A stretch of 64,000 nucleotides of DNA from Lysobacterales bacterium (GTDB lineage Bacteria; Pseudomonadota; Gammaproteobacteria; Xanthomonadales; SZUA-5): NCBI GenBank assembly GCA_022841325.1, contig JALHRS010000011.1:44791-108790 (forward strand). Direction: 5' to 3'. The position numbers were made by a program, and so were the translations under genes. The notes beneath the pieces were generated by a model. It made no database searches, was not told the DNA's origin, and saw only the letters and a list, made by a program, of their open reading frames with translations. Within the stretch, counting starts at the first letter, position 1. Each line of letters begins with the position of its first letter. Positions 15,382 through 60,386 of the stretch are shown in pieces.

Positions 15382-15462
15382 GGGCGGTGGCTCGGCATGT
15401 CGATGTGGTCTTGTAGGTCCTTCGGCCGCGTGGCGGACCAGGCGACGACGGGGCCGGGTAAA

Positions 15463-15482
15463 ACGTGAAACGTGAAACGTCA
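15463..15482. repeat. 7-bp tandem repeat (gtgaaac)n, short
   Basis: About two and a half copies of gtgaaac (aaaacgtgaaacgtgaaacg) between the adaptor and pump genes. A related short array (gtgaaaagtgaaac) lies at 25695-25710. Confidence 0.6.
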
Positions 15483-15526
15483 ATCTCGGAGCGGCAATGC
15501 GGCGTCACAGAGGCAGGAAAGCTCTT

Positions 15527-15619
15527 GTAGGTCACGTTGCCCGCGCCAGCGGGCTACGTGACGAAGCGATGCGGCATCACCGTGTCACGTAGCCCGCTGC
15601 TGCGGGCAACGTGACCTAC
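15527..15619. repeat. Large inverted repeat between adaptor and pump genes
   Basis: Arms of 36 bases at 15527-15562 and 15584-15619 (starting gtaggtcacgttgcccgc) are almost perfect reverse complements around a 21-base centre. In the transcript this would fold into a very long hairpin, 200 bases upstream of the pump start. It could reduce pump expression relative to the first two genes or protect the upstream mRNA; that effect is inferred. Confidence 0.85.
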
Positions 15620-28003: not shown

Positions 28004-29050
28004 ATGTCGCTGGCTGTGGTGTACACGCGCGCCGAAGATGGGGTCCAGGCGCCGCTGGTCACGGTGGAGGTGCACCTGTCCGGTGGTTTGCCGGGGCTGG
28101 CCATCGTTGGCCTGCCGGAAGCCGAGGTGCGGGAAAGTCGCGATCGGGTGCGGGCGGCGCTGATCAATTCGGCCTTCGAGGTGCCGCAGCAGAAGATGAC
28201 GGTGAATCTGGCGCCCGCGGATCTGCCCAAGGAGGGTGGTCGTTTCGATCTGCCCATCGCCATCGGTGTGCTGGCGGCCTCGCGCCAGTTGCCGGCTGAA
28301 GCCGTGGCGCGCTATGAATTCATTGCCGAACTGGCGCTGTCGGGCGAGCTGCGCTCGGTGCGCGGTGCGCTGCCGGCCGTGCTGCGCGCCCTGGAGCAGG
28401 GGCGCATCCCGATCGTGCCGCGCGGCAATGCCACCGAAGCCGGACTGGTGGCCAACGGTGCGGCGCTGTCGGCCAGCAGTCTGCTCGAAGTGGCGGCGCA
28501 TCTGCGCGGTCGCCACAGTTTGCCCAGTTGCCCAGCGCCTGGGCCCAGCCTCGGCGAAATCATCAACGGTCTGGATCTGGCCGATGTCCGGGGTCAGCTC
28601 GCCGCCCGGCGCGCCCTCGAAGTGGCCGCGGCCGGGGCCCACAATCTGCTGATGGTGGGGCCGCCAGGCAGCGGCAAGACCATGCTGGCCAGCCGCCTGC
28701 CGGGCGTACTGCCGCCGCTGGCCGACGATGAGGCGCTGGAAGTGGCGGCCATCAGTTCCATCACCGGCGCCGGCGTTGATCCCGTCGCCTGGCGCCAGCG
28801 CCCCTTCCGGGCGCCGCACCACACTGCTTCCAGTGTGGCTCTGGCCGGTGGCGGCGGCCATCCGCGCCCCGGAGAAGTCTCCCTGGCGCATCACGGCGTG
28901 CTGTTCCTCGATGAGTTGACCGAGTGGAACCGCAGCGTGCTCGAGGTGCTGCGCGAGCCCATGGAATCGGGCCGCATCATCATTTCCAGGGCGGCCCGAC
29001 AGTCGGAATTTCCGGCACGTTTCCAGCTGGTGGCTGCGATGAATCCCTGA
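28004..29050 (+). pseudogene. comM: 5' part of comM (YifB, MCM-like helicase), interrupted by the island
   Basis: The first 348 residues of a ComM/YifB protein (family length about 500). Seen: the start [17 protein letters not shown], the Lon-protease-like N-terminal domain with [19 protein letters not shown], the Walker [21 protein letters not shown] near residue 219, the [10 protein letters not shown] segment and Walker B LFLDEL. It stops right after FQLVAAMNP, where intact proteins continue with CPCG. ComM is a hexameric helicase needed for branch migration in natural transformation, so transformation may be impaired. The stop codon TGA at 29048-29050 is made by the incoming DNA. The 3' part is not in the window. 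Confidence 0.9.
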
Positions 29051-33884: not shown

Positions 33885-34412
33885 CTAAACGGTTGGCATT
33901 ATTGAGATTCCCTTTCTATTTCCGATTCGCTGCAGCCATTCGTTTGATATCGAAATGTTCGAACCAGTGACACCCAGCACTCCCGCGCAGTCGTTAATTA
34001 TAATCGCATCTGGTCCATTTCCGTGCGCGAGTATTAGGTGATTTGCATCGTATCCAAAGGCCTTTAGCGAGACAGAGACAAGAGCGACCCCGCCTTCGTT
34101 TACGATCTCTATCACCCGTGCAACTTTCAGTTTTCGTTCGACTTTCGCGGCACGACCGCCAAGCGCCGCTAAATCACATAGGGGCCCATGATAGGCGCCC
34201 AAAACACGATCTTCAGCATGTCGGTACACACCGAGTTCCATCGCCTTTTGCATCCATTCCCAAGGCGTCCACGCGCGGCCTTCGCATGCCATAGCAACAC
34301 AAAGTACCCCACATGCGTGGGGTACCCATCTAGCGTAGTCATCTCTGGTGCATCCGAACGCAAGCCAGGGCGTCTTTGTTCCGTCGTGTTTTGGAATAAA
34401 TTGGACATTCAC
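33885..34412 (-). CDS. C39-like cysteine peptidase domain protein
   Basis: A 175-residue protein. Seen: HACGVLCVAMACEGRA with candidate catalytic Cys34, NHLILAHGNGPDAIIINDCA with candidate His125 and Asp141. This order and spacing (Cys in a helix, His in a strand, Asp shortly after) match the papain-like C39 fold. No signal peptide and no transporter domain, so it is a stand-alone cytoplasmic enzyme. Its ATG overlaps the TGA of the VanX/PLP fusion gene, so the two are made together. Such peptidases often trim leader peptides or act as isopeptidases; the substrate here is unknown. Confidence 0.65.
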   Translation of the reverse strand: MNVQFIPKHDGTKTPWLAFGCTRDDYARWVPHACGVLCVAMACEGRAWTPWEWMQKAMELGVYRHAEDRVLGAYHGPLCDLAALGGRAAKVERKLKVARVIEIVNEGGVALVSVSLKAFGYDANHLILAHGNGPDAIIINDCAGVLGVTGSNISISNEWLQRIGNRKGISIMPTV

Positions 34413-36142
34413 GCGGAAACCCCCAAGGACAAGATAAAACGCAACGCCGAGATTATGGATTCTACGGGCTCCGCTCCGACGCTGAGCCTCACGGCCGTGG
34501 CAGGGATCGACGATTCTCCTGTTGCATTTCGATCTGCCGCAATTCCGGAACGGAACCTCGGATTGGTGTTGAAATGCTCTATTGAACTAACTGGAGCACC
34601 GAACGTACACATTAATTTTGGCATGCCATATACCGCGGCGTTGGCGGCAACGATTGCTTCAATTTGGGCGCCATGATCGGGCGTCACATGAAGCACGATT
34701 TGCCCAGATCCCTCAGCTGTGTGGACTTCCCTCACCATGGATATTTTCTCCAAGAAGGCCGCGATGCGACGTACCTTTGGTGAGATTGCGGCCATCCGGT
34801 CACTGAGGGTCATCGTTCCCACGAGAATTCGAGACGCCGCTTCGGGGGCAAGAACGCATCCTTCGAGCAATGCGCCTTCCTGAATGGAGCGCATTATTGC
34901 CGGGTGACCGAACAAGACACCACCTGCTGTGCTACCGCCACTTGGATACTTGGAGAGACTCATTGCGAGCAAGTCGAGGCCGCTTGAGAAAAGGCGCTGA
35001 CATGGTGCCACGCTGGTATCGACTGCCAACAATGCTCCATATTCGTGCGCAATTCTAGCTAGCCCTTCGATATCTGATTCAAGTAACAACCAATTCGACG
35101 GACTGTCAACCCAAACTAGTGTGCGACAGGACTCATTTTTCTTGAGAATTTCCCTCAACTGATTATCTGACTTGGGGTGGGGCAAAGTATCAATTTGAAT
35201 ACCATGTGCCCTTGCAGCGTCTAATGCAGAGGCGCGAACTTCGTAATAGGTGTCATAGCCGATAATGATTCGTTCCAAGCCGAGGCGCCTGAAGACGTTG
35301 GAGGCTGCCGACAGGCCGGACGGGAACAGGGCACCGACATATCCCGGGGGGGCTTCGATAACCATAGCGAGTTGAGATAATAACTGTCGCTCAATCGGAG
35401 ACCCTGAACGAACATAATAGGGGTCATGAGTTTCATGCGCTAGCGCTCGTTGGCGGTCGCCCGGACTATGAAATGCTGGCGCAACTCCGGAGTCCGCGAC
35501 TGGCCAAGCCGAAAACGCGTGCAAATCGACATTTGTTGACTCGATGTTCGGGAGTGAAACGATTTGGGTAAGTACGGGCTCGACGCCGTTTGCAATACCC
35601 CAGCGTATGGTTCCAAACTCCAGGTGCCAGAACTCGGTTTCGAGAACGAGAAAGCCTGCCGATCGCGCCGCATTCACCAGTACGCCGCGAGCAGCTGCCT
35701 TTTGTTTCGCCTCACTGTCCTGAGCGGGGTAGCGTTCAAAATAATCAGGGGCTGATCGGTCTGAGAATTCATCGTAAGAGGCACCCAGATCAACTTCGAC
35801 ACCGTTTCGAAGGAGCCAAACATCGACTGCGCCCCCGGTTCCGTGCGAAAAGATGGAGTCAGGATCCGCAACAAAATCATCTAGCGCTACAGTGGATGGA
35901 TCGATGCCGTTACTTTGCAGTTCAGAGATGTAGCGTTCCCGGAGCGCTCGTTGCGTCTGGCGGCTTCGGAGGCCATCGAGAACCACCACGTCAAGATCGG
36001 CGTCAATGGCTCTTACAGTGTCGCGTAGGACAAGAAGTTTCTCTAACGCAATATCGGCCAGAAAATGATGGCGACTCGCTCCTTCGAGACCTTGTTCAAA
36101 GTAAACTGGTCGGGATGAAATTGTAACCGGGACAACACGCAT
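34409..36142 (-). CDS. Fusion of VanX-like D,D-dipeptidase and PLP-dependent Cys/Met-metabolism enzyme
   Basis: A 577-residue two-domain protein; ATG 36142 follows gaaggagagc. Residues 1 to about 190 match the M15D (VanX) family: VVLDGLRSRQTQRA with the substrate Arg, SHGTGGAVDVW with zinc ligands H100 and D107, the DLGASYDEFSDRS segment, and ETEFWHLEFG with E170 and H173. Residues about 210-577 match fold-type I PLP enzymes of the cystathionine gamma-synthase/lyase group: ALFPSGLSAASNVF, LLAVDTSVAP (D374) and SLSKYPSGGSTAGG with the PLP-lysine K398. All catalytic residues look intact in both halves. I know no described enzyme with this pairing. It may cut a dipeptide and then act on the released amino acid (elimination, replacement or racemisation). 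Confidence 0.8.
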   Translation of the reverse strand: MRVVPVTISSRPVYFEQGLEGASRHHFLADIALEKLLVLRDTVRAIDADLDVVVLDGLRSRQTQRALRERYISELQSNGIDPSTVALDDFVADPDSIFSHGTGGAVDVWLLRNGVEVDLGASYDEFSDRSAPDYFERYPAQDSEAKQKAAARGVLVNAARSAGFLVLETEFWHLEFGTIRWGIANGVEPVLTQIVSLPNIESTNVDLHAFSAWPVADSGVAPAFHSPGDRQRALAHETHDPYYVRSGSPIERQLLSQLAMVIEAPPGYVGALFPSGLSAASNVFRRLGLERIIIGYDTYYEVRASALDAARAHGIQIDTLPHPKSDNQLREILKKNESCRTLVWVDSPSNWLLLESDIEGLARIAHEYGALLAVDTSVAPCQRLFSSGLDLLAMSLSKYPSGGSTAGGVLFGHPAIMRSIQEGALLEGCVLAPEAASRILVGTMTLSDRMAAISPKVRRIAAFLEKISMVREVHTAEGSGQIVLHVTPDHGAQIEAIVAANAAVYGMPKLMCTFGAPVSSIEHFNTNPRFRSGIAADRNATGESSIPATAVRLSVGAEPVESIISALRFILSLGVSA

Positions 36143-38926: not shown

Positions 38927-40237
38927 CTACTCGCCTCGACTTGCTGCATGGCCCCCGGCGTCCACTCCGTAGTGCCGACATAGCACTTCTACCTTCTCTC
39001 GTTCCGTAACTGGAAGTACGTAAACTCCGTTGCTTTTCCACGTTAGTAGTCGGAGCCGACTACGCAGGACGCCACCGACGGTTCGTGGAGTTACTGGACG
39101 TTCGTAGTCAGCGCCGAAGCGTTGGTCAACCCCCTGCGCAATCTCTCTGATCGGCACCGAAGGTCCTTGTTGGCTTGCAAAAAGATCTCGGAGTACCTCT
39201 AACACGTGTGCTTCGATCGTTGAAGCACGTTCTTGATACATTTTCTGGTCGAAGGACTGGACCGCCTGAAGAATATCAGCACGCAGCGCTCTGTCATTAA
39301 TGATGGAAAGTAGGGGCACGAGGATCTGATTCAGTCGCGGCGACAAGGTGTGGTCTGCGAGCGAATCGTCGATCTGCGCTGTCGCTAGATTTCGGAACCT
39401 ATACATCAACAACTTGTTGCGTAACTGGGTGGCCTCTTCCTTTTGAACGTCAGGTAGGTTGATGGGGATGTCTCGGCGCAGACTCCGCTGTCCCATCTCT
39501 TCGGTCAAGAAGCGGCTCTCAAGTGCTTGGTCGTCAAAGGCCTTGCGCATGGCCACGATCTTGGGACCAAAGACGTCAAAGGCGCGCGGATTGAACTGGC
39601 GGTCGTTGGTGACAGTCGTTCGGAGTATCGGAAATCCTCGCACGTTTCCGTTGTTGAAAATCTTGACCAACTCGCTCTTTTCGTCGCTGAAGCGAAAATC
39701 GGCTTCGTCGAAGACCAAAGTTCCCCTAAAGCTATCGAGGGTGTGAAAGATCGGCGAAACTGTCGAGGCTCCACTGGCGAAGAACGGCTTGTATGAAAGC
39801 GAGCCGATCACAAAAAGCGCGCGGGTCTTTCCAGACCCGTAATCACCCCTGAATCTGAGATACGGCAACTCATTGAACGCATCGTAGACCCAGGACAGCA
39901 AGATGTAGTAGCAGCAGAGCTTGCGAAAATGATCAGACAAATCGACGTATCGGTGAATGTACGCTTCGATATCCGAAACCAAGGTGGTTATGGAGTCATA
40001 CGGTTCCGCTTTCTCAGAAAAAAGCACTGCACCGTGCTTGATCAGGTTATTTCCCGGTGCCACTGGACTTAGGGTATCACCGCTAGCAGCGGAGTATCCC
40101 GGTCCGGTCGACACCACTCCGCCCTTAAACCATGTTAATTGCGTTTGTTTGGTGGTCACGCAATAGACAGTCTCGATGACTGTTCCGTCAGCACACCGTA
40201 GAGAAACCACAGTGGTCTTTTTGTTCTTGCTTACCAT
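38927..40237 (-). CDS. P-loop ATPase of mobile-element type
   Basis: A 436-residue protein. Walker A is FRGDYGSGKTRALF (about 129-142) and Walker B is LVFDEADFRF (about 174-183). A following segment with FNPRAFDVFGPKIVAMRKAF and LESRFLTEEM looks like the sensor/arginine region of a hexameric AAA+ or SF3-like helicase. The C-terminus (VPIREIAQGVDQRFG and TPRTVGGVLRSRLRL) is probably a winged helix. Such ATPases, related to DUF927/D5-type primase-helicases, occur on integrative elements and phages and act in replication. It faces the second serine recombinase unit. Confidence 0.6.
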   Translation of the reverse strand: MVSKNKKTTVVSLRCADGTVIETVYCVTTKQTQLTWFKGGVVSTGPGYSAASGDTLSPVAPGNNLIKHGAVLFSEKAEPYDSITTLVSDIEAYIHRYVDLSDHFRKLCCYYILLSWVYDAFNELPYLRFRGDYGSGKTRALFVIGSLSYKPFFASGASTVSPIFHTLDSFRGTLVFDEADFRFSDEKSELVKIFNNGNVRGFPILRTTVTNDRQFNPRAFDVFGPKIVAMRKAFDDQALESRFLTEEMGQRSLRRDIPINLPDVQKEEATQLRNKLLMYRFRNLATAQIDDSLADHTLSPRLNQILVPLLSIINDRALRADILQAVQSFDQKMYQERASTIEAHVLEVLRDLFASQQGPSVPIREIAQGVDQRFGADYERPVTPRTVGGVLRSRLRLLTWKSNGVYVLPVTEREKVEVLCRHYGVDAGGHAASRGE

Positions 40238-40563: not shown

Positions 40564-42075
40564 ATGAGGTATGTATACGCATATATCCGCGTCTCAACGC
40601 AAAAGCAGGGTCAAACAGGATCTTCTCTTGCTGAGCAGCGCCTCGCTATAGAGGTGTATGCCAAACGAAACAGTCTCATAATCGTTGAGTGGTTTGAGGA
40701 ACAGGAAACCGCCGCAAAACGAGGCCGGGCGGTATTTGCCCAGATGCTCGCTTTACTACTCAAGGGTCGAGTCAGTGGAGTTATTATCCACAAGATAGAT
40801 CGGGGCGCCCGCAACTTGCGCGACTGGGCTGACTTGGGTGCGCTCATCGACAAGGGTATCGATGTTCACTTCGCGCATGAGAGTCTCGACATGCAGTCTC
40901 GCGGTGGGCGCCTCGCAGCCGACATCCAGGCTGTCGTAGCCGCGGACTACATTCGCAATCTCAGAGACGAAGTTAAGAAGGGTTTCTACGGCAGACTACG
41001 TCAGGGGCTCTATCCATTGCCGGCACCGATTGGATACCTGGACCAAGGGAGAGGGTTGCCAAAAATCCCTGACCCGGTGATGGGGCCTTTGGTGCAAGAT
41101 GCATTCAAAGTGTATGAAACAGGGCGACTCAACTTGCGCACTCTGGGCGCCGAGATGTATCGACGCGGACTGCGGAACCGGCGCGGCGGACGAGTGACGC
41201 GCAACGGACTCTCTACCATGCTAAACAACACTTTCTATATCGGCCTGATATCCATAGGGCGCACGGGAGAGTGTTTCCCAGGGGCTCATGAGCCGTTGGT
41301 GCGCAAAAGTCAGTTTGACCGCATACAGCAGATTCTACGTGGCAGGACCAAGAACACAGGGCTCAAACACAATTTCACGTACCGCAAGGTACTACGGTGC
41401 AGCAATTGCAATTATTGTTTGGTCGCAGAGATCCAAAAGGGGATCATCTACTACCGATGCCACACATCCCTATGCCCGCGAACCTGTGTCCGCGAAGACT
41501 CGATCGATCTTCAGGTCTCGGATGCACTTCGTCAGATCACTATGTCGGAGGACGAAGCAACCGCCCTCCAGAAGGAGTTTGCGTATCTTGAGAAGGATGA
41601 CTCGATAGATCGCGAAAACTCACTCGCTTCGCTTGAACTGCGCGTCGCGAATGTTCGAGATCGGTTGGATCGCATCGCGGAGGCGTATGAGACACGCGCA
41701 CTAGATGAAGAAGTAGTTCAGCGACGCAATCGAGCCCTGCTCGGTGAGAAGCTGGCCCTAGAGGAATCTCTGAAATCGTTCAAAGGCGGCAATGACCCCT
41801 CTCGCGCTCGCCGACTCCGGTTCCTCGAACTGATTCAACGGCTTGGAACTTACTCGGATGCCACGAATTGCGAAGAGCGCCTTGATGCACTGAAAGAGGC
41901 CGCCTCGAACCTTTCAGTTGATCGAAAACTCCTTGCTTTTGAATGGCGAAAGCCCTTTGACGTGTTGGCTTCTCGGTCGAATATTCATAATGGTGCACCG
42001 CATCGGGCCAGATCTCGAACTAAATTACCCCAAGTCGCGCGTAAGCTTTTCGATCTTCTGAGTCAGGAAGAGTAG
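40564..42075 (+). CDS. Second large serine recombinase
   Basis: A 503-residue protein. Resolvase domain: YVYAYIRVSTQKQGQTGSSL with catalytic Ser11, then IIHKIDRGARNLRDWADLGA and SRGGRLAADIQAVVAADYIR. Recombinase domain: LPAPIGYLDQGRGLPKIPDP. Zinc ribbon: LRCSNCNYCLV and CHTSLCPRTC (about 276-307). A coiled coil follows. Only 26% or so of the first recombinase's motifs agree by eye, so the two are separate lineages. It could mark an element nested in the island or an older insertion. A run of eight G (42138-42145) lies 60 bases after its stop. Confidence 0.9.
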   Translation: MRYVYAYIRVSTQKQGQTGSSLAEQRLAIEVYAKRNSLIIVEWFEEQETAAKRGRAVFAQMLALLLKGRVSGVIIHKIDRGARNLRDWADLGALIDKGIDVHFAHESLDMQSRGGRLAADIQAVVAADYIRNLRDEVKKGFYGRLRQGLYPLPAPIGYLDQGRGLPKIPDPVMGPLVQDAFKVYETGRLNLRTLGAEMYRRGLRNRRGGRVTRNGLSTMLNNTFYIGLISIGRTGECFPGAHEPLVRKSQFDRIQQILRGRTKNTGLKHNFTYRKVLRCSNCNYCLVAEIQKGIIYYRCHTSLCPRTCVREDSIDLQVSDALRQITMSEDEATALQKEFAYLEKDDSIDRENSLASLELRVANVRDRLDRIAEAYETRALDEEVVQRRNRALLGEKLALEESLKSFKGGNDPSRARRLRFLELIQRLGTYSDATNCEERLDALKEAASNLSVDRKLLAFEWRKPFDVLASRSNIHNGAPHRARSRTKLPQVARKLFDLLSQEE

Positions 42076-42461: not shown

Positions 42462-44597
42462 TCAAGAAGTGCGGTCCATTTCAATTTTGGCCGTAAGCCC
42501 GGAGAGATTATATTTTAAGACTGCTTCCAAGTGACGCGAGCGCTCAGAGTCTTCGACATGACTTGAATACCTACCTGATCTTAGGTTTATTGTCCATACG
42601 TGGTCCCCTGCGGCGCAATACAATTCACCTGCGGATCTTGCTGGCTTGCCGTCGATTAATGTGGGATGCCCTTGCGACACGTTCCCACTGTTAATGTCCT
42701 CGCCTATCACAATGTCTCCTGCCGCATCGATCACCCAAATATATTTTCTTCTTGGATCAAGGAAACTCCATTGGCGCTGTTGCTCACCACGTGTAAGTTT
42801 ATAAGTGTCCCCACGGCTTTGAATGTTTTTCCCAGCATCTGTTTCGCCCAATTTTAGGGGCCTGCTTGGCAGACGGAGAGGGCCGTAAAGAATATTCAGA
42901 TTCGCGCTGTTCCTCTGCTGGCTGAAGAATTTGGTGAAGCAGCCGGAATTTTCTTGGGACATCGGGTCGCTCGAACCATAGGTTCGCCAAATCCGATTTT
43001 GTACACAATTTTCTACGTGTATCCAGACTGTCTGTGCTTCGGGCGTCCTGGATACGTAACCGACCATCATTGCGCCTTGAGGCAGTTCAGTAGCGTCGAA
43101 CAAAATCTCCGTTATCACCTCGGACGACCTAGCGTCAAATATTCGACATCGCCAAAGAAATCTCGGCATGTTTTGCATCAACATGGCCTCTTTCTCGAAT
43201 GAGCCGTTAAACGAAAAGAAGTTCTTGGAGGAAATAATTTCCTTCTTAATATCGTTGTTGACAACAAGAGAAATTTCCCAGCTTCCATCCACAAAGGAGC
43301 ACACCGCGTTTGCAAGTTTCTTTGTGTTAGTTGTCTCAGTGTCTTCGCTATCGCTCTGAAGGGTTCTAAGATGGTTCAAAATGTTGGACAAATGGAAATA
43401 GAGTGCGCTGCAGGTTTGGTAAATATGGTGATAAGGGATTCTGATCTTGTGGTAAAGCCCAACAATGGCAATATTGGGTACGAACATTTGCGTGCTATGG
43501 CCTTCAACCGTCGATTCCATACCATACAATGGCACACCATTGGAATGAGGGGAGACAAACCTCTTCATTTCAGTGCTCACTTTGAGGTACGGACCACAAC
43601 GGTCGTCATGCACGTAAATTTTGTGCATATCGTCGGAGCGGAATTTCTGACCGCTCCCACCAGAACTGCTATCAGGATTCAGGGCGTAGCCTGTAACGCA
43701 GACGAGGTGCAAGCCAAGGAGAGAGAACTCTGTCTCGTTTTCTCTTCGTTGGTATACTTTGCCGCCAAGTATTAAAGACGAATCGCTAGAAAGGTAACTG
43801 TAGACGAGGGCCTGCAACTCTCTCACCGACTGATGATCGGCCCACACAATATTAGGTTCCATTCCAAAGTGCTGAAGAGCTCTGAGTATGTGTGGCGGCG
43901 ACAATCCGTCGGTGGGGAAAGTTCGGGATGAATCAGAGCCGCCGCTTCGAGCGGCTTTGGTGATAGTACTTGACGAGGGTAGCATGTTCAGCGAGATGTC
44001 TTTGCGTGCGCCCAATGACACCCAAAGAGCGCTGGTTGCACATGCTGAGACGACTTTATCTTGCTCGATAAATGGTACAGTTTCGACGGTCAGTTTGAGT
44101 CCGAATATGGAAACATCGATCTCGCGCGTCAGAATTTTCCGTTTTGAATCTTGCTTCAGTTCTTCATAAGGCCGGAGGCAAATACGCGCAAAAACCGTAT
44201 GCGGGATCGGCCGAATGACTACGAATCCTATGTAGAGCCGAATGAGTTCATCGACCGATTTGTCCGGTTTTCCAGATACGTATTCGCGAAACTGACTCTC
44301 AGTAAATGACTGAGAGAAAAAATGCAAGCGTGAGCATTTTCTAGGGTGATCTGGAAAACATCGAGCATAATATTCTGCGTAGTCTTCTAAATAATTTCTG
44401 TCTACGTAGTCGCTTTCGACGACTATAGTTTTACAGGCAATGTGGTCAACATTAAGGTAGTTGCAAAGATATACTAATTGCGCCTTTTCTGAAACCTCAT
44501 CTCGCTCGTTCCAGCCTGTCATGTAGCGAACGAAGTCGATAATGAAGTCCGAACTATATTCAACTACGCTGAGTGGTGAGAGGCTCGAATTTGACAT
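42462..44597 (-). CDS. Large protein with a C39-like cysteine peptidase centre
   Basis: A 711-residue protein; ATG 44597 follows ggaagccc. The central part has the papain-like order: VVSACATSALWVSLGARKDI with candidate Cys186, LLGLHLVCVTGYALNP with His297, and IYVHDDRCGPYL with Asp331 or Asp332. The N-terminal ~170 residues (VVESDYVDRNYLEDYAEYYA, then FVVIRPIPHTVFARICL) and the C-terminal ~370 residues match nothing I know. No signal peptide or transmembrane segment is seen. It stands behind a terminator and a 70-residue ORF. The design (unknown flanks, peptidase core) is reminiscent of conflict-system effectors, but no such system is recognised. Confidence 0.55.
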   Translation of the reverse strand: MSNSSLSPLSVVEYSSDFIIDFVRYMTGWNERDEVSEKAQLVYLCNYLNVDHIACKTIVVESDYVDRNYLEDYAEYYARCFPDHPRKCSRLHFFSQSFTESQFREYVSGKPDKSVDELIRLYIGFVVIRPIPHTVFARICLRPYEELKQDSKRKILTREIDVSIFGLKLTVETVPFIEQDKVVSACATSALWVSLGARKDISLNMLPSSSTITKAARSGGSDSSRTFPTDGLSPPHILRALQHFGMEPNIVWADHQSVRELQALVYSYLSSDSSLILGGKVYQRRENETEFSLLGLHLVCVTGYALNPDSSSGGSGQKFRSDDMHKIYVHDDRCGPYLKVSTEMKRFVSPHSNGVPLYGMESTVEGHSTQMFVPNIAIVGLYHKIRIPYHHIYQTCSALYFHLSNILNHLRTLQSDSEDTETTNTKKLANAVCSFVDGSWEISLVVNNDIKKEIISSKNFFSFNGSFEKEAMLMQNMPRFLWRCRIFDARSSEVITEILFDATELPQGAMMVGYVSRTPEAQTVWIHVENCVQNRIWRTYGSSDPMSQENSGCFTKFFSQQRNSANLNILYGPLRLPSRPLKLGETDAGKNIQSRGDTYKLTRGEQQRQWSFLDPRRKYIWVIDAAGDIVIGEDINSGNVSQGHPTLIDGKPARSAGELYCAAGDHVWTINLRSGRYSSHVEDSERSRHLEAVLKYNLSGLTAKIEMDRTS

Positions 44598-45065: not shown

Positions 45066-46136
45066 CTACCTTAGGTTCATCCAGCCGCTGAATGCCTTCT
45101 TTGCACTCTCGATGTCAGGTGCGACGCTGTTGGGCGACAGTCCAACCAGCCAACGCACGCGAACGTCGAAACGCACTTCATCGGCCAGCGTCGTCAATGC
45201 CTCGCCAGAGCGGGATGAGGCCAAGAAGCCCAGCCGAATCGATACGCGTTCGTCTGCGGAGAGAAACGCCCACTGTTGCTCGCGACCATCGCTTAATTCC
45301 CGCTCCAGACGCACGCGCTGCACGCGCAGTGGATCATCCGACCGCAAGACGAGTTCAGGGTCCATCATGCGCGGGTATCCGGCGATGATCGGTGGGCGGG
45401 CGGCTTTCTGATTGCGCAGCGCATAGGTGTCTTCTGCCGCATGCCCATGCGTGACCAGTGTTTCAAGCTGCGATACTACGTCAAAGGCTGACACGCCCAA
45501 CAGGCGTTCTGCCTGTTGGGTCAGGGACTCAAGCGGTGCCGAGCCGCAGGCATAGTCGTCACAGGCGACGCGCCATCGGGCGAGCGTCCGTCCAGTCAGC
45601 CGTTCGTAGCCTGCTTCCTTGGCGCGATCGAGCTGGGCGATGCCCGCAGCTGTGATAGCTACCTTTCCATCGTCAATGAACAGTAATCCAGCGTCGCTCA
45701 TTCCTTCCAGTAGCGTGGACAGGCGGTTAGGTGATGCGATCTGTAGTTCCTCCGCCCAGCCTAGTAACGCGTCGATACGACAATCTTGACTAGCAGCGTC
45801 GTTGACCACTATCGAATAAGTGCACTGTTCAACCGCGCGCACCGAACCAGGTTCGCCGACATTGCTCCGAGACGGTGTTGCGCTGGCCGCAAGCGTCGGA
45901 ACGGAGTGAACTGCCAGCCATCCAGGCGAGTCCTGAATCGCCCAATCCATTGCCACGGGATAGGCCTCATCACCGAACACGATTCGTGTGTGTCGCCAGG
46001 TCGGCGGTCCTTTGAGATATGCAAGCGTTGTATCCCAAAGAAGACGATAGAGCGCCGATGCGTCCGGCGGGTACGTCTCCGCGACGAATTCGGGCGACAT
46101 TGCCGTCAATGGTGTAATCATCGGGTGGGCGTTCAC
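45066..46136 (-). CDS. C-terminal gate part of a type IA topoisomerase, as a separate gene
   Basis: A 356-residue protein starting at GTG 46136 (overlapping the SMI1 stop, GTGA). Its first residues MNAHPMITPLTAM align with the AHHAIIPT segment that follows the active-site tyrosine domain in TopB/Top3 proteins. PPDASALYRLLWDTTLAYL matches the conserved LY.LIxxRxLA helix. LSTLLEGMSDAGLLFIDDGK, then VAITAAGIAQLDRA and LTGRTLARWRVACDD match the helix-turn and LT..G...(E)..L segments near the C-terminus of these enzymes. It lacks the TOPRIM and tyrosine parts, which are encoded by the upstream genes 47360-51550 and 46575-47363. Last gene of the four-gene overlapping unit. Confidence 0.75.
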   Translation of the reverse strand: MNAHPMITPLTAMSPEFVAETYPPDASALYRLLWDTTLAYLKGPPTWRHTRIVFGDEAYPVAMDWAIQDSPGWLAVHSVPTLAASATPSRSNVGEPGSVRAVEQCTYSIVVNDAASQDCRIDALLGWAEELQIASPNRLSTLLEGMSDAGLLFIDDGKVAITAAGIAQLDRAKEAGYERLTGRTLARWRVACDDYACGSAPLESLTQQAERLLGVSAFDVVSQLETLVTHGHAAEDTYALRNQKAARPPIIAGYPRMMDPELVLRSDDPLRVQRVRLERELSDGREQQWAFLSADERVSIRLGFLASSRSGEALTTLADEVRFDVRVRWLVGLSPNSVAPDIESAKKAFSGWMNLR

Positions 46137-46585
46137 GCAGAGTCCTCATTTCCATCGACCACACGCTGCAGCATGAAAGTAATCAGTCCCTCGGCATCAT
46201 CGAAGGTTTCCCAAACACTCAGTCCTGACATTTCCAGCGCCGCGTAGACCGCACGCTTCTGATCCAGGACAAAGACTATGTCGTCGCGTTTTCCGAAGTA
46301 CACTAACGATTCGTCAATCGTTTCGCGGAGGTCGCGATTCGCTTCGATCATCGATTCTTTGAACAACCAGTATCGGTGTGTTGGCCAAACCGTGAGTCCG
46401 TCGAACAGGATTCCATCAGATAGACGCAACACCCGCAGATAGGCATCTGGCAACGTAAGGCCGAACTCGCGTTGAAACCTCTCGGTTAGGGCCACGATAG
46501 CGGTTTCCGACGCCGGAGGCGGGACAAATTCATCGTTGTCTCGCCTTAAGCGCAAGATTGTACTGACCATTTGTTCAATCGACAT
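46133..46585 (-). CDS. SMI1/KNR4 (SUKH) family protein
   Basis: A 150-residue protein; ATG 46585 follows ggaggttttt. The SUKH pattern is clear: IVALTERFQREFGLTLPDAY, LRVLRLSDGILFDGLTVWPT, and an acidic C-terminal segment with VFVLDQKRAVYAALEM. SUKH proteins commonly act as immunity proteins beside nuclease toxins, and also as general regulators in eukaryotes. It overlaps the HNH gene by 11 bases and the topoisomerase tail gene by four. Here it likely neutralises or anchors the HNH protein; that role is inferred from family and position. Confidence 0.8.
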   Translation of the reverse strand: MSIEQMVSTILRLRRDNDEFVPPPASETAIVALTERFQREFGLTLPDAYLRVLRLSDGILFDGLTVWPTHRYWLFKESMIEANRDLRETIDESLVYFGKRDDIVFVLDQKRAVYAALEMSGLSVWETFDDAEGLITFMLQRVVDGNEDSA

Positions 46586-47363
46586 CAAAAACCTCCAGGA
46601 ACTCAGAGTAAGTCACCGACCGAGACTCGTAGCCTAAGGCTGGATTGGGGTAAATGACGGTGTCGCACGGTGGCTGTGGAAACGCGACTACCGCTTGCTC
46701 GCCTGAAGCAAGCAAGCGCACACGCAGTTCGGCCGGATTGAAGTAACCATGGAGGGCGCGGTGCTCGATATCGGACCGAAGCAATAGATAGTTGCTGGGC
46801 GTATTACTACCGCCGTCGTCCAGAGGAAGGCGGTGGTGCACGTCGTAATTGTCGGGGGTGCGCCCGTACTTGGCCATGGTGGTGATTTGGGCCTCGGTCA
46901 ATCCAGCAGCGAGTAGCTGGTCGCGGTGTGTGACGGCGATCTCTTTTACCCAGGCTTTCCGATGTTGTCGATCGAATGCGGCCCGTTCTGCTTTGTATTG
47001 TTCGCGGTTGGTCTTCTTTTCGTAATTGATAGCCACATGCGAAAACCCGTGCAATGCCCGCGCACCCGCCGGGTGATAGAGTACGATCATCGAAACGCTG
47101 CCTGGTTTCGTTGACGCGCGGTGTCGAGCGATCAGCGCCTCGCAGACCCGGTCCAAGTAGGCTGCATCGCGACGTCGATCCTTGAGTAGGGCTCGCACCA
47201 GGTTTCTAAGAAGCAGCTGACCGGAGGATGGAAGCGTGGCGACAGCGTAGCCATAAATTGTTGCCTCGTCGGGAGACAGTTCGCCGGCAGCGACCAGCGC
47301 GTCAACCAATTCTGGCGGAACATACGTTCCTCTCGTTCGTGGGTACGCGGTGACGCCACTCAT
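46575..47363 (-). CDS. HNH nuclease protein that begins with a topoisomerase IA tyrosine motif
   Basis: A 262-residue protein whose ATG overlaps the stop of the helicase/TOPRIM gene (ATGA). Its first residues MSGVTAYPRTRGTYVPPEL match the active-site motif of type IA topoisomerases (TYPRT/SD.RYLP in TopB and Top3); the nucleophile would be Tyr7, with Arg9 conserved. The C-terminal half holds an HNH nuclease domain: DNYDVHHRLPLDDGGSNTPS (H176, H177, N187, N191) and SDIEHRALHGYFN (H201, H205). The middle (LPSSGQLLLRNLVRALL, then KKTNREQYKAERAAF) is helical. So the missing tyrosine segment of the split topoisomerase is welded to a nuclease. A SMI1-type protein gene overlaps its end. Confidence 0.75.
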   Translation of the reverse strand: MSGVTAYPRTRGTYVPPELVDALVAAGELSPDEATIYGYAVATLPSSGQLLLRNLVRALLKDRRRDAAYLDRVCEALIARHRASTKPGSVSMIVLYHPAGARALHGFSHVAINYEKKTNREQYKAERAAFDRQHRKAWVKEIAVTHRDQLLAAGLTEAQITTMAKYGRTPDNYDVHHRLPLDDGGSNTPSNYLLLRSDIEHRALHGYFNPAELRVRLLASGEQAVVAFPQPPCDTVIYPNPALGYESRSVTYSEFLEVFDVD

Positions 47364-50300
47364 AGACTCGACTCATCTAGATCACCCGTGCCTCTGGCGC
47401 GGGGCTTGGCCTTGCCTTCATATAACGCCCGCAGCGCGTCCATCGTCCGCATGGGCATCCATTGCCACTGCCGATACGCATGAATCAACACCTGGGCAGT
47501 CGTGTTCGCTGGGTACCAAAGGCCGACCTGCTGCGTATCGAAGCGGAGGACGAACGGCAACCTGCTATTTTCTGACAGCTGCTCGACGGCGGCTTCGGCC
47601 AAGACGCGATCATTGAACCAACGTGGTTGGGCAGCCGTTCCAACACTATCCATTAAGTGGCCTACGACGGTCTGGGCATCGCAGTGTCCTTGGACCCGGA
47701 CACCGAACGCCAAGGGTTGTGCCGCCCGGTCGACAACTTCGCGCATGAGCGCCAGTTCGGGGCGACTGGCGGTAACTCCTTGTTGGCGGAGCGCGTCATG
47801 CAATCGCGCGTCGACCACTTTTCGCATCAAGCTCACCTTCACCCGTCGAGCATCGATCCCAGGCAAGGCCAGTTCTCTCGCCAGCCGGATTTCTCTTGGG
47901 GTCAATGCGTAAAAACGCATCCGGCGGAATTTGTTCTCAAAGTGCCGCCCAGCTTCCTGTAGTACCTGTATGACGTGCCATGCGATCTCTTCGCCATCAT
48001 CATCATCGTCGGTGGCAATATATACGGCATCGTACTGGCCCATTTCCGCGGCCACCTGACGCAGCAATTGCATCGCTCCTTCGCCGTCCTTGCTCACCTG
48101 GAACCTCACTTTTTGCGAGGAATGGACCAACTCGCGAAAGTGGCCGTGAGTCGCAATGACCTTAGCGGATAGTCCGAGGGCCGCCTCGACGACGTGTTGC
48201 TTGCCAGGCGCTTCGATGATCACGCATTCCCGTGGATACAGACGTTTGCCACGCTCGGCTAGGTAATCGACAAGTAGATCTAATGGCGCCGCCCGCTTGC
48301 CGTGGCCGGTACGCTCTAGGACGCTGGGTGCGGCAAAAAGGATAAAACTGTCCTGCGCACGACTGACCGCCACATTTAACAGATTTGGGCCGTCGCTTTC
48401 GACGAAGAAAGGCGCAACTGTTTGGGTTAGCGAGAACGCGACGATCGGCTTTTCCGCGCCCTGTAAGGCATGCACGGTATTGATCACCATATCCCGAGCC
48501 GCGTCGCCGAACTGCTCTGTTAGGGCTGTCTGCAGGGCGTTAGCCTGAGCGCGGAACGGTGCAATGACCGCCACAAGCTCGGCCAGCGTGGTCTTGTTGT
48601 AGTGCTCTAACAGCCGCGGACCTTCGTGCCGCAACCAGCGAACGATTTCCTCGACTTCGTCCTTGTTGATCCACGACCCGCTGTGGCGCCTAGCGCCGCG
48701 GACCGGTGCGACTCCGACCCAAGCCATAGGCGGATAGATAAATGGCGGCCTTTCCTTTCGGCACGGTACCAACAACTCACCATACAACAAGCGCCGGTTG
48801 TACTCGATAATGTCGGCGCGACACCGATAGTGCGCCTTAAGGCTAATACCGGCGGCACGGGCGTCCGCCGCATGATCGGTATATTGGGTGACTCTCTGGG
48901 CTGCCTGCATGATGGAGCCCAAACACGAAGTCACCGCGTCAGGCATAGCGTCGATACCCCTATCTATCGCCAAGCGAGCGCTACCCGCCGAATCGACGTT
49001 CCATATGGGCTTGAGTTGCGCGGTGTCGCCGACCACGATGGCGCGTTTGGCGAAGGCGAAGCTGGCCGCGCCAATTTCGGGCGACGCTTGACCCGATTCG
49101 TCAAAGATCAGCAAGTCCGCAAACTCGAATTTTTGATAGATACGGGGCAATGTGTAGACAGTCGAGACTATTACAGGTGCCAGCATCGCAGCTCGGCGCA
49201 AGGTGGTTAGCTCATCATCGCCGTCTGCCTGCGTGGGCGGATCCGCCAACCAGCGCGCCTCCCAGTAGCGCGCTGCCAGATGGAAGTGCAGAAAGCGGAA
49301 CTTGCTATCGATCGCCGTTTCGAACTCCAAGGCCAACTCGGTCGGCGCTGTGATTGCTTGACTGCACCAGGAATCCGCTTTCTCCGTCGCGACGACATCG
49401 GAATTGGCCACAGCCTGTACCAGCGCGAGGGCTTCGGAACGCCATGTCTCGACTTCTTGCTGTGTTCGTTGCGCAGAAATCAAGGTGGCACGCGCTGCGG
49501 TCAGCGATGTTGCACTCACAGCCAAGTGTTCAAGCTCGTCGCTCACCCGACGTTGTAGATTGGCCACTGTCAGTGATGGTGGCGTCTGCTCAGTGAAGTT
49601 TTGATGGGTGAGTACGGCCAGTGCCGAAGCACGAAACGCTGTCGCCTGTGGTCCCCAGCGATCACCAATTATTCGGCGCAGGAGTCGCGCCCACCAAGTC
49701 CTTCCTTGAGCCTCAAGGCGTTCGGCTTGGGCGACTTGTGCGAGGGACTGGCTGAACATGCCTAACGCGGCAGAATGGCGTGCGCGTTGCGTCTCAAGCT
49801 CTCTGACCTCATGAGCGGCCAAGGCTTCTATTTCGGCCCAATGAGCGGCGGGACGTTTGAACGCCTCATTTGCACCGGCTAAGGTAAGCCACTCAGTGAA
49901 TTGACGCTGCAGGGATCGCATCGCTGCGACAGAGGTTGAAAGCAATCTCTGGATTGCGACCGCCGCCCGCGCCGCGGAGATCTCGGATTGGGCCAAGCCG
50001 GCACAGCGTCGATGCAACTCGAGAAATCCCTCAAGCAGCCATGTCCGTTGCTTATCGGCGGCGGTTGCGAACTTGCTTGCAGCGCCCCGCAAGGAATAGG
50101 GCGCCACATCGTCGCTCCCGTATTGCCTTCCCCGCATCAGCATGAAGGATCCAAGGTCTTCATCACTCTTCGATCTTGCCGGAAAGAACCAGCCGTAGGA
50201 TGGCAGGTCAGGCAACCAGCGACTCGTCCATTCCGGCTGCAACGCTGGTCCTGGAATACCTGAGAACGATTCGATGATGTTGGTTACAGCCTTGTTGGTT

Positions 50301-51550
50301 GCCGCCGTCGCGAGCAAGATGGGTGGGTCCTTACCGTTCAAAGCGGCGTCGACCCAACATGTGGCAATCACGGCACGCAGAAAACTGGTCTTGCCGGTAC
50401 CCGGTGGGCCATTGATCGCTAAGATTTGTCCGGAAGCGGTCGCGGTGATGGCTGTCGCCGCCACCCGCTGCGAGCGCTCTAAGCCAAAGCCTTCTCGGCG
50501 TCCGAGATCTCGGTTGTATGTGTCTATGTGCCCGGTCAGTTGCGGTGCTCTCCCGATTGCCTGCACCTCCTCCAATGCTTCCGGTACGAATGGCGGCTTG
50601 GTCAACTGCCGAAGCAACGTGGCTGATGTTCCTGCCAGTGCCCGCTGATACACCTTGGCTATGGCGACGCCGACGCCTTGAGTCTGCCAGGGTACAACTT
50701 TCCAATATGTGTCGTTGGTACCCACTTCTTGTGCGAGGTTTAGGACGTCCAACTCCGCGTTGCCGCAAACTGTCCGGACAAACGTTTCAACGTAGCTCCA
50801 ATAATCAGGCCATGTAGCGTCACGCCGTGGCGGGTAGTCACGTACAAATTGCTCACAATCGCTGACGGACCCGAAATACGCCGGCTTCTCGCGATCCGGG
50901 TCCACCGGCTCCAACCATTCGCGACTGAAGAACGGTGCGGCACCGGCCGGCACAGGAACCAATTGTCGAGTTGCGGCATCTAAGGCCAGAGGGATAGCAA
51001 GTAGCGCAGAGGTCGATTTATTGCGGCCGGACACGATGTACGCGACCAACACCGCCACAACGTGGCGGCCATCCACGGAACCAGCATCAAGGCCGCTCGG
51101 GGGCGGCAAGAACTCTGAGAGCGTTGCAACCTTCAGTCCGGGTGCGACGTCGGACCCTTTTTCCACTAGCTTATTCATGTCGCAATACGTCAAGGCGTCC
51201 TGCCAGTACTGAAGCAGCTTGTCAGCGTCAGGAGTCCGCACATGTTCACCAATTGCGGCGATCCAAGAGACAAGATCGTCGCGCGAAAAGCTCGCTGGCG
51301 CCTCGAAACCATAGCGCTCAGCCAAAGCCGGGCAGGCTGCGCTAACCTCGTTCTTTGACTTGGTATCTGCGGCTGAATTGGGCTCCAACAGCTGCACTCC
51401 GCGGTCGATTGCGAAGGCGACGCTAAGCCATTGGCGCGCGAGGGTCCGGTCAGTCTTGATTCCGAACGGCAGGCGCCAGCCGTGCTTTTGCGCCAGCCGG
51501 TCGAGGCTCTTAAGTTGTTCTGGGGATACCGAACTATCTGGCGGTGTCAA
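47360..51550 (-). CDS. UPF1-like SF1 helicase fused to the TOPRIM part of a type IA topoisomerase
   Basis: A 1396-residue protein. Helicase motifs: Walker A NGPPGTGKTSFLRAV (about 380-394), Walker B LLIFDESGQASPE (about 817), motif III VVGDTAQLKPI, then SLKAHYRCRADIIEYN, and motifs V/VI INTVHALQGAEKPIVAF and LLNVAVSRAQDSFILFA. These define a UPF1/Dna2-type SF1B helicase. From about residue 1105 a TOPRIM follows: VIIEAPGKQHVVEAALG and YIATDDDDDGEEIAWHVI (usual DPDREGE, here DDDDDGEE). The last part (LWYPANTTAQVLIHAYRQWQ, TMDALRALYEGKAKP) matches the TT...L.Y.. and QxLYE segments just before the active-site tyrosine. The gene then stops. Only TTG 51550 can start it; no ATG or GTG is in frame upstream. 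First gene of the four-gene unit. Confidence 0.8.
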   Translation of the reverse strand: MTPPDSSVSPEQLKSLDRLAQKHGWRLPFGIKTDRTLARQWLSVAFAIDRGVQLLEPNSAADTKSKNEVSAACPALAERYGFEAPASFSRDDLVSWIAAIGEHVRTPDADKLLQYWQDALTYCDMNKLVEKGSDVAPGLKVATLSEFLPPPSGLDAGSVDGRHVVAVLVAYIVSGRNKSTSALLAIPLALDAATRQLVPVPAGAAPFFSREWLEPVDPDREKPAYFGSVSDCEQFVRDYPPRRDATWPDYWSYVETFVRTVCGNAELDVLNLAQEVGTNDTYWKVVPWQTQGVGVAIAKVYQRALAGTSATLLRQLTKPPFVPEALEEVQAIGRAPQLTGHIDTYNRDLGRREGFGLERSQRVAATAITATASGQILAINGPPGTGKTSFLRAVIATCWVDAALNGKDPPILLATAATNKAVTNIIESFSGIPGPALQPEWTSRWLPDLPSYGWFFPARSKSDEDLGSFMLMRGRQYGSDDVAPYSLRGAASKFATAADKQRTWLLEGFLELHRRCAGLAQSEISAARAAVAIQRLLSTSVAAMRSLQRQFTEWLTLAGANEAFKRPAAHWAEIEALAAHEVRELETQRARHSAALGMFSQSLAQVAQAERLEAQGRTWWARLLRRIIGDRWGPQATAFRASALAVLTHQNFTEQTPPSLTVANLQRRVSDELEHLAVSATSLTAARATLISAQRTQQEVETWRSEALALVQAVANSDVVATEKADSWCSQAITAPTELALEFETAIDSKFRFLHFHLAARYWEARWLADPPTQADGDDELTTLRRAAMLAPVIVSTVYTLPRIYQKFEFADLLIFDESGQASPEIGAASFAFAKRAIVVGDTAQLKPIWNVDSAGSARLAIDRGIDAMPDAVTSCLGSIMQAAQRVTQYTDHAADARAAGISLKAHYRCRADIIEYNRRLLYGELLVPCRKERPPFIYPPMAWVGVAPVRGARRHSGSWINKDEVEEIVRWLRHEGPRLLEHYNKTTLAELVAVIAPFRAQANALQTALTEQFGDAARDMVINTVHALQGAEKPIVAFSLTQTVAPFFVESDGPNLLNVAVSRAQDSFILFAAPSVLERTGHGKRAAPLDLLVDYLAERGKRLYPRECVIIEAPGKQHVVEAALGLSAKVIATHGHFRELVHSSQKVRFQVSKDGEGAMQLLRQVAAEMGQYDAVYIATDDDDDGEEIAWHVIQVLQEAGRHFENKFRRMRFYALTPREIRLARELALPGIDARRVKVSLMRKVVDARLHDALRQQGVTASRPELALMREVVDRAAQPLAFGVRVQGHCDAQTVVGHLMDSVGTAAQPRWFNDRVLAEAAVEQLSENSRLPFVLRFDTQQVGLWYPANTTAQVLIHAYRQWQWMPMRTMDALRALYEGKAKPRARGTGDLDESSL

Positions 51551-59177: not shown

Positions 59178-60386
59178 ATGGAAACACACTCGGACATCAC
59201 CTTCTTCGCCACGACTAACGCGCGGTTGCCGCATCGGCGATTTGGCGTTAGGCAGTCGGATCGCTTCTCGCACCTATACATCATCGGCAAGACGGGCACT
59301 GGCAAGACCACGCTCATCGAGACACTGGCGTTGCATGACATCTATCGCGGGCACGGTGTCTGCGTGATCGATCCTCATGGCGACTTAGCTGAGCGTGTCG
59401 TCGCGAGCGTGCCGGAATCCCGTGCTGCCGACTTGCACTACTTCAATGTCCCGGATCGTCTGCAACCTTTCGGATACAACCCCGTGCGCAAGGTGCATCC
59501 GCGACACGTCCCCCTGGCGGCTTCCGGTCTCATGGAAGCGATGAAAAAACACTGGGACGACGCCTGGGGTGTTCGGATGGAACATGTGTTGCGCAATGCC
59601 CTCTATGCGCTGATCGAAGCCGGCGACGCCACCTTTCCGGACGTCTTGCGGATGCTGATCGACAAGGACTTTCGGAAGTCCGTCGCGAGTCAGATTTGCA
59701 ATGAGCAGGTAAGGGCGTTCTGGACTCAAGAGTTCAAGGCATACAACCCGCGCTACCGTCAGGAGATGATTGCTCCGATCCAGAACAAGATCGGCGCACT
59801 GCTCGCGGATCCCATCTTGAGACGCATCTTCACGGCCGCGCCCACCGAACTACACTTTCGCCATCTCATGGACGACGGCAAGATTCTGATAGTCAATCTG
59901 GCGAAAGGGCGACTCGGCGAAGACAGCGCCAATATGCTTGGCGCCCTGCTGGTCACCACGCTCGGCCTCGCTGCGCTCAGCCGCTCAGACACTACGGCGG
60001 ACAGACGCCGACCGTTCTTCGTGTACATCGATGAGTTTCAAAGCTACACGACGCTCTCTGTCGCCAACATGATCTCCGAGCTGCGTAAGTACGGCATCGC
60101 TTTGACCTTCGCTCACCAGCACCTCTATCAGTTGGAACCGGAGGTTCGTCACGCCGTCCTCGGTAACGCCGGAACCTTGGTGACCTTCCGGGTCGGTCCG
60201 GAAGATGCGCGGGTCATCAGTCGTGAACTTGAACCGGTTTGCCAACCCGTGGAGTTGATGAATTTGGCGAATCGCGACATCTACCTCAAACTGATGATTG
60301 ACGGCGCCCCCAGCCGGCCCTTTAGCGCCACCACATTGCATCCGGACGAGTTGGGCCTTGTCCGCAACTTTACCTATCCCAGCTAG
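59178..60386 (+). CDS. VirD4/HerA-type ATPase, first copy
   Basis: A 402-residue protein. Walker A GKTGTGKTTLIETL (37-50), the IDPHGDLAERVV segment typical of the TraD/VirD4 group, Walker B FFVYIDEFQSYTT (about 280) and LTFAHQHLYQLEPEVRHAVL with the glutamine-rich sensor motif. No N-terminal transmembrane helices, unlike classical VirD4. Such proteins are called type IV secretion-like DNA-binding ATPases and are frequent on integrative elements. May pump DNA in conjugation or act in restriction-like systems. First of three genes in a row (402, 126 and 908 residues). Confidence 0.85.
   Translation: METHSDITFFATTNARLPHRRFGVRQSDRFSHLYIIGKTGTGKTTLIETLALHDIYRGHGVCVIDPHGDLAERVVASVPESRAADLHYFNVPDRLQPFGYNPVRKVHPRHVPLAASGLMEAMKKHWDDAWGVRMEHVLRNALYALIEAGDATFPDVLRMLIDKDFRKSVASQICNEQVRAFWTQEFKAYNPRYRQEMIAPIQNKIGALLADPILRRIFTAAPTELHFRHLMDDGKILIVNLAKGRLGEDSANMLGALLVTTLGLAALSRSDTTADRRRPFFVYIDEFQSYTTLSVANMISELRKYGIALTFAHQHLYQLEPEVRHAVLGNAGTLVTFRVGPEDARVISRELEPVCQPVELMNLANRDIYLKLMIDGAPSRPFSATTLHPDELGLVRNFTYPS

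Follow-up and report, generated by a model that had tools for sequence, protein, structure and literature searches.

What does a locus do in which a type IA topoisomerase appears to be divided over three genes, with the motif of its catalytic tyrosine placed on a predicted nuclease? This question is raised by four genes on the minus strand at positions 45066–51550 of a 64,000-nt stretch of DNA from a Lysobacterales bacterium; the whole stretch is referred to here as the window. Gene 1 encodes a superfamily 1 (SF1) helicase followed by a TOPRIM domain and the front part of a topoisomerase, gene 2 a short tyrosine motif, a helical domain and a predicted HNH nuclease, gene 3 a protein resembling YrhA/SUKH immunity proteins, and gene 4 the back part of a topoisomerase (Table 1). 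On comparing these sequences with those of relatives and known enzymes, we lean modestly towards the reading that genes 1, 2 and 4 likely form one composite topoisomerase, with its tyrosine on the predicted nuclease, and that the whole is probably a system directed against invaders.

Neighboring genes overlap by 4 bases (genes 1 and 2), by 11 or 14 bases (genes 2 and 3, with an ATG or a TTG start for gene 3) and by 4 bases (genes 3 and 4), and each chain is separate, with its own stop codon. An earlier account made from the DNA letters and their open reading frames, called here the sequence-only reading, had given the four coordinates correctly, together with overlaps of 4, 11 and 4 bases.

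Genes 1 and 4 flank the tyrosine segment of TopA

The helicase of gene 1 is of the UPF1-like SF1 kind (Pfam AAA_12, E=7.5e-17; AAA_11, E=8.3e-14), and residues 179–1100 match the PADLOC model of MkoC from Mokosh type II (PDLC03924, E=1.1e-163). It is followed by a TOPRIM domain (Pfam Toprim, E=7.1e-12), and residues 1110–1379 align to positions 2–296 of the 632 in the TopA model TIGR01051. In the NCBIfam comparison, gene 1 matches topA at E=2.9e-16 and topB at E=0.24; the kinship with TopB put forward in the sequence-only reading was dropped, and the enzyme is TopA-like instead. A profile of the topoisomerase part of gene 1 from nine loci (A3) finds TopA structures at E=2.9e-27, and its match stops just past the LYE motif, at position 318 of the E. 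coli 1cy0 chain. Gene 1 itself ends after LYEG. The TOPRIM domain has the catalytic E and K and the DxDxE signature of type IA topoisomerases, with D as the third acid in the window. Its catalytic E, K, D and D are invariant in all ten loci at which the system was found (see below), as are the equivalents of three arginines and the tyrosine of LYE.

Gene 4 gives a weak signal when examined alone: Pfam Topoisom_bac matches residues 2–83 at E=0.0016 and 18 bits, below the cut-off of 35.1. As a family, the assignment is firm. Built from twelve gene 4 proteins, profile A4 matches Thermotoga TopA at E=5.2e-18, and its match in the 1cy0 chain starts at position 365, at AHEAIRP. Gene 4 is thus the remainder of the topoisomerase, as had been proposed, with the active-site histidine and the downstream domains expected of a type IA enzyme. 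The histidine is invariant in all twelve rows of A4 and is also present in the divergent locus L047; its counterpart in E. coli TopA is presumably His365. The gene 4 homologue of a Tatlockia metagenome-assembled genome (MAG), locus L003, keeps the classic motif ARPSTYA, as KVARPSTYADRVES. The four-domain toroid fold of type IA topoisomerases was likewise found, and one relative in which genes 1 and 4 are fused shows the topoisomerase fold over 458–482 residues. What is absent between the end of A3 and the start of A4 is the segment of TopA that holds the catalytic tyrosine, which we take to be Tyr319 of the E. coli enzyme.

A tyrosine motif at the start of gene 2

A YxRT motif lies within residues 1–12 in 34 of 37 gene-2 relatives; of the three without it, one has 244 residues and starts later, one has 157 residues, and the third, of 172 residues, is an outlier. 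The background expectation for so early a YxRT is about 0.04 of 37, and the motif was seen in one of 124 background proteins, these being other proteins of this analysis, mostly gene-1 relatives, and not a random set. The same proteins served as background for a matrix derived from the tyrosine sites of 30 chromosomal TopA sequences. By this matrix, the YxRT site is the top-scoring site in 33 of the 34 gene-2 proteins, with scores from 5.4 to 23.6; over 167,746 background segments, the 99.99% quantile is 5.2 and the maximum 11.5. The divergent gene-2 starts (GLISYPRT, SLITYPRT and GFITYLRT) are near the GLITYMRT of TopA. The nine loci of profile A5 all have the Y, R and T, and the tenth, L047, keeps them.

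The chain that ought to hold this motif does not have it. In all 62 helicase-TOPRIM relatives, the main chain lacks YxRT after TOPRIM; four of these relatives fuse genes 1 and 4 into one chain and yet skip the tyrosine segment. The motif behind this count missed one further protein, P0073, which has Toprim by Pfam and likewise stops after LYEG, with no later YxR[ST]. Seven gene-1 and gene-2 proteins have a longest contig of equal length, which hints, short of proof, that they lie on one contig.

The predicted nuclease chain very likely provides the catalytic tyrosine in trans, because YxRT is missing after TOPRIM in all 62 relatives, the fused forms skip the segment, 34 of 37 gene-2 proteins start with YxRT, and five HNH-YrhA toxins found elsewhere (see below) have none. 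Since catalytic residues are kept across genes 1, 2 and 4, these chains resemble components of a functional enzyme. The anatomy and, by inference, the reassembly in trans that had been proposed from the window are strongly supported by profiles that flank the tyrosine segment, by a gene order that varies while every piece is retained, and by the fused relatives.

Four more distant helicase-TOPRIM proteins (P0103, P0106, P0110 and P0130; 26–34% identity) stop just after an LYE-like motif. Hence, splitting may extend beyond the ten loci.

Several observations weigh against the composite enzyme. (I) Gene 2 lacks the D and S found after YxRT in TopA. (II) A profile of the first 40 gene-2 residues found no topoisomerase. 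(III) In the structure model of gene 2 (mean predicted local distance difference test score, pLDDT, 86), residues 17–84 are helical and about 92–230 form the HNH region, but residues 1–12 are disordered (pLDDT <50), and none of the fold matches of the model is topoisomerase-like. (IV) The site of the window scores just 5.4 in the matrix test, and the score of 10.9 shared by many relatives is below the background maximum. (V) The third TOPRIM acid is E in eight of the ten loci and D in two, the window and L010. (VI) The comparison of the four fused relatives covers their protein chains. (VII) Among ten neighboring genes from four loci annotated with PADLOC, a strong adjacent defense match occurs in L003 only. 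The sequence-only reading had named failure to place the start of gene 2 in the topoisomerase fold as a result that would count against it, and this start was indeed left unplaced by profile and by fold; its assignment rests on motif, position and a small matrix test.

Given that the gene-2 start is unmatched to topoisomerases by both methods, YPRT could simply be intrinsic to this HNH family, next to a topoisomerase that is broken. We regard this as very improbable: the five HNH-YrhA toxins without a topoisomerase have no YxRT, the motif is conserved and the pieces are jointly present in ten loci, and the catalytic residues of genes 1 and 4 are kept.

The predicted nuclease and its putative immunity protein

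The HNH domain of gene 2 of the window falls below the Pfam cut-off when examined alone (E=0.14–0.22). The gene-2 family profile, in contrast, matches the HNH domain of Cas8f-HNH (E=1.7e-4), and tblastn of gene 2 against a plasmid collection finds HNH toxins (E 3e-12 to 8e-6 in five records). The proteins of these five records come from Photobacterium (in a type VI secretion system (T6SS)/Rhs neighborhood), Pantoea, Bacillus subtilis (an LXG protein), Cytobacillus (adjoining an LXG gene) and Kosakonia; E-values of the pairwise comparisons with them refer to a database of five sequences. A YrhA gene lies directly downstream of the HNH gene in all five records, which are five of the 20 gene-2-matching plasmid records other than that of Polaromonas; Photobacterium was chosen since its listing already named YrhA, and the count comes from a biased sample. 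None of the five HNH proteins has YxRT.

Gene 3 belongs to the YrhA/YPO0640 family (NCBIfam NF038335, E=4e-19), with Pfam SMI1_KNR4 below its cut-off, and its earlier assignment as a SUKH/SMI1-type protein holds. Genes 2 and 3 thus show the arrangement typical of polymorphic toxins, an HNH toxin domain with a SUKH/YrhA gene immediately 3′ of it. Pairing of HNH toxins with SUKH immunity proteins is described (PMC3482391), and DNase activity is reported for five of the six LXG toxins in a single strain of B. subtilis (PMC8321402). A Pfam scan of gene 2 at E up to 1 gave no export or delivery domain (LXG, RHS or similar), and the sole non-HNH row was Peptidase_C58 at E=0.063, under the cut-off. 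Because of the HNH kin, the YrhA gene downstream and the described HNH-SUKH pairing, genes 2 and 3 resemble a toxin and its immunity partner, in which a helical domain with a YPRT tip appears to replace the delivery part. No toxin other than HNH was found behind YxRT among the ten loci.

These data also bear on a simpler role for the motif. The YPRT tail may dock the HNH toxin onto the helicase-topoisomerase merely to hold it, as in a guard or addiction module in which the toxin is set free when the complex is lost or is attacked, for example by a phage or a competing plasmid; catalysis by the tyrosine would be optional in such a module. Consistent with this, the HNH-YrhA pair stands alone elsewhere, the tail is disordered on its own, as a docking peptide would be, and the D and S after YxRT are lost. 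However, the docking peptide would then be the tyrosine motif itself, with Y, R and T kept in ten loci, and the remaining catalytic set, unneeded for a mere tether, is kept as well. We consider the tether rather unlikely, although it is the strongest of the alternatives, and prefer the composite topoisomerase.

Ten loci keep the four genes in two orders

Ten distinct loci, all with the four genes, were found through homology to gene 2 or gene 4; retrieved in this way, they show that neither gene occurred without the other pieces, and they do not report on the frequency of gene 1 alone. The order 1-2-3-4 occurs in the window, in the Tatlockia MAG (L003), in a MAG (L006) and a Legionellaceae MAG (L007) in both of which gene 1 is cut at the contig end, and on a plasmid of Polaromonas JS666 (L010). 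The order 1-4-2-3 occurs in a Gallionella MAG (L004), an Azoarcus MAG (L005), Pseudomonas japonica (L008), a viral contig (L009) and a genome from the genus of P. japonica (L047). The order described from the window is therefore that of five loci, and the other five depart from it. Pairwise distances among the ten loci correlate between the four genes (r 0.86–0.94), and none of 2000 permutations reaches this agreement. As ten distinct loci keep it, the four-gene set is not due to chance.

In the order 1-2-3-4, the HNH-SUKH pair lies exactly inside the reading order of the topoisomerase, as would be expected if a selfish cassette had inserted, homing-like, into a helicase-topoisomerase gene, taken over the tyrosine segment and become indispensable without any other joint function. 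Half of the loci, however, have genes 1 and 4 adjacent and genes 2 and 3 outside, four relatives fuse genes 1 and 4 without the tyrosine segment, and the distances of the four genes agree. Such a cassette is, in our estimate, quite improbable. An intein or homing element was rejected in view of separate chains with stops, the permuted order and the host segment missing in fused relatives. A programmed frameshift between genes 1 and 2 was also dropped, because the order 1-4-2-3 makes it unnecessary.

The four-gene system is rare. Scanning genome contigs with HNH patterns gave six loci, and variants such as that of L047 (HHRKPLDDSG) escape these patterns. A3 at a threshold of 1e-25 matched 282 of 398 genomes of the order to which the window belongs and was swamped by ordinary TopA; the window's own genome alone stands out (1.8e-121, the next being 1.9e-36). 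A4 was used instead for the later surveys, whose counts exclude the genome at the center of each set. It found the system in one of 397 genomes of the genus of P. japonica (L047) and in two of 142 of the order of L003, which by position are L006 and L007 again. No carrier beyond the center was found among 249 genomes of the order of L005, 149 of the family of L004, 193 relatives of the L047 genome (a set that overlaps the P. japonica genus set) or 348 of a phylum-wide draw, where the window's genome is alone of 349.

Carriers and neighboring genes

Locus L010 lies on a conjugative plasmid. The contig of L009 (L051) bears a P22-like portal gene (E=7e-83), and by its sequence the L009 system is carried by a phage or prophage. 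No further viral contig with the system was found besides this one; among phage records searched for the whole protein, eight matched and none covered 80%, and a search of plasmids for gene 4 of L008 found none. In one phage record, MT835528.1 (H84), the match takes in the topoisomerase part but no helicase (E=9e-10). Next to the system of L003, at 9392–15613 on the minus strand of that locus, a 2073-aa protein matches PDC-S37 (E=5e-139), Hhe (4e-57) and MkoA (2e-48).

Within the window, the G+C content drops beyond 30 kb from about 0.64 to about 0.53, with values of 0.57–0.59 over most of the locus. This drop and two large serine recombinases point to what is probably an integrated island. 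Other neighbors are two TrwB/HerA-like ATPases, a protein with two enzyme matches that adjoins a C39-like peptidase, and two proteins of no convincing family (Table 1).

Table 1. Positions of the four genes, their parts and neighboring features in the window
Feature	Position	Strand	Extent	Description
Gene 1	51550-47360	-	1396 aa, TTG start	SF1 helicase, TOPRIM and topoisomerase front part
Gene 1, helicase region	48251..51016	-	residues 179-1100	MkoC-like (PADLOC)
Gene 1, TOPRIM and topoisomerase front part	47414..48235	-	residues 1106-1379	TIGR01051/NF006451
Gene 1, C-terminus				...LRALYEGKAKPRARGTGDLDESSL
Gene 2	47363-46575	-	262 aa	tyrosine motif, helical domain and predicted HNH nuclease
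Gene 2, N-terminus				MSGVTAYPRTRGTYVPPEL; begins MSGVTAYPRT
Gene 2, YPRT	47334..47345	-	residues 7-10	proposed catalytic tyrosine motif, in trans
Gene 2, HNH toxin-like region	46647..47084	-	residues 94-239	tblastn and pairwise matches, Cas8f-HNH
Gene 3	46585-46133	-	ATG start; alternative TTG start 3 bases upstream (46588)	YrhA/SUKH immunity-like
Gene 4	46136-45066	-	356 aa, GTG start	topoisomerase back part; opens NAHPMITPL
Gene 4, His4	46125..46127	-	residue 4	counterpart of the AHEAIRP active-site His, aligned via A4
Large serine recombinase	28891-30573	-
Large serine recombinase	40564-42075	+
C39-like peptidase	33885-34412			adjoins the next feature
M15/PLP protein	34409-36142	-		one protein matching D-Ala-D-Ala dipeptidase (M15) and a Cys/Met pyridoxal phosphate (PLP) enzyme
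Protein of no convincing family	38927-40237	-	436 aa
Protein of no convincing family	42462-44597	-	711 aa	just downstream of the system, same strand
TrwB/HerA-like ATPase	59178-60386	+		8-12 kb upstream (both ATPases); mad8 (PADLOC) E=5e-21; conjugation or defense
TrwB/HerA-like ATPase	60822-63548	+		mad8 (PADLOC) E=1e-18; conjugation or defense

Taken together, the genomic context fits a mobile defense system, short of proof. A conjugative plasmid, a P22-like portal neighbor and a recombinase-bearing island as carriers would also suit a helicase-topoisomerase that helps its element to replicate or transfer, with HNH-SUKH as a built-in addiction device. The carriers are, however, of differing kinds, and the helicase is nearest to a defense protein; a maintenance role of this sort seems improbable to us, although the neighbors in the lists of open reading frames were annotated in part and may include a shared replication gene. 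That the system defends the cell against phages or plasmids we regard as moderately probable.

Proposed mechanism

If genes 1, 2 and 4 do form one enzyme, the overlapping frames would allow the chains to be made together. Chain 2 would lend its tyrosine to the TOPRIM domain of chain 1 and the histidine of chain 4, while the SUKH protein would hold the HNH domain. We expect with some confidence that the YPRT tail docks against TOPRIM, and it is only slightly less probable that SUKH keeps the nuclease silent. The helicase may then drive the complex along the DNA or RNA of an invader. A cut at the composite site would link the 5′ end to the nuclease chain. Normal TopA must keep hold of both ends for strand passage; here, the partner of the bond would be a separate chain, which could depart with the DNA. 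Cutting, stalling or the loss of a partner might each deploy the HNH domain; release of the nuclease by DNA cutting or by disturbance of the complex had also been supposed in the sequence-only reading.

The later steps are tentative. It is possible that the complex is carried by its helicase to the DNA of an invader, where attack by the tyrosine either puts HNH covalently on the 5′ end or frees it from the complex, and that the DNA is then destroyed. With equal reserve, the system may be pictured as an immune machine for covalent delivery, in which each cleavage would hook a toxin to invader DNA, topoisomerase chemistry would serve as both sensor and delivery, and SUKH would guard the cell's own DNA.

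Relation to known systems

The closest relative of the helicase is that of Mokosh type II, through the match to MkoC described above. MkoC presumably ends in a phospholipase D (PLD) domain. Many of the relatives without TOPRIM, among the matches listed, carry the PLD domain PF13091. No PLD family was found in gene 1 by a Pfam scan at E up to 1; TOPRIM and topoisomerase stand in its place, and three further genes are added. A PLD-like domain is also given for Mokosh type II in a table of PMC10952713.

With TopA, the locus shares TOPRIM, LYE, YxRT and HxxI-like motifs, and ARPSTYA in relatives such as L003. It differs in its three chains, the tyrosine motif on a nuclease, the loss of D and S after YxRT and, for the window, the lack of a Topoisom_bac match above the cut-off. 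Division of a type IA enzyme into two polypeptides is known from the reverse gyrase and Topo III of Nanoarchaeum equitans and the reverse gyrase of Methanopyrus kandleri, and in their accessible parts these descriptions name no toxin or immunity gene (PMC4200833, PMC8185306). Reverse gyrase also joins a helicase to a type IA topoisomerase, but its helicase is SF2-like (PMC4200833), whereas that of gene 1 is UPF1-like SF1, which places the locus outside this class. The HNH-SUKH pairs of LXG, T6SS and Rhs systems resemble genes 2 and 3 in their HNH region and in having YrhA as the next gene downstream; here, a helical domain with YPRT takes the place of a delivery domain, and the pair travels with topoisomerase pieces. 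The nearest working analogue is Hachiman (HamAB), in which a nuclease is kept in check by a sensor helicase and set free upon DNA damage; its accessible description, by which rather than by sequence it was compared, names neither a topoisomerase nor SUKH.

No description of a topoisomerase with its tyrosine on a toxin-family nuclease was found in a literature from which subscription papers were mostly out of reach, in line with the earlier statement that no such system was known. Archaeal split type IA enzymes, Mokosh and HNH-SUKH pairs are all known; judged from sequence, the present combination, with its predicted function, stands apart from Mokosh in lacking a PLD domain, from reverse gyrase in its SF1 helicase and from polymorphic toxins in lacking a delivery domain.

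If this reading is true, an enzyme family found universally has here passed its nucleophile to a separate polypeptide of a toxin family. This would be a new principle of arming a toxin, with its activity or release tied to the catalysis of another enzyme. It would also be a new way of crosslinking protein to DNA and an example of a topoisomerase naturally made of three pieces. Tyr7 of gene 2 would be the DNA-linking residue, and the nuclease would become harmful once the topoisomerase or SUKH is removed. Finally, Mokosh-like helicases would be extended to a new kind of effector.

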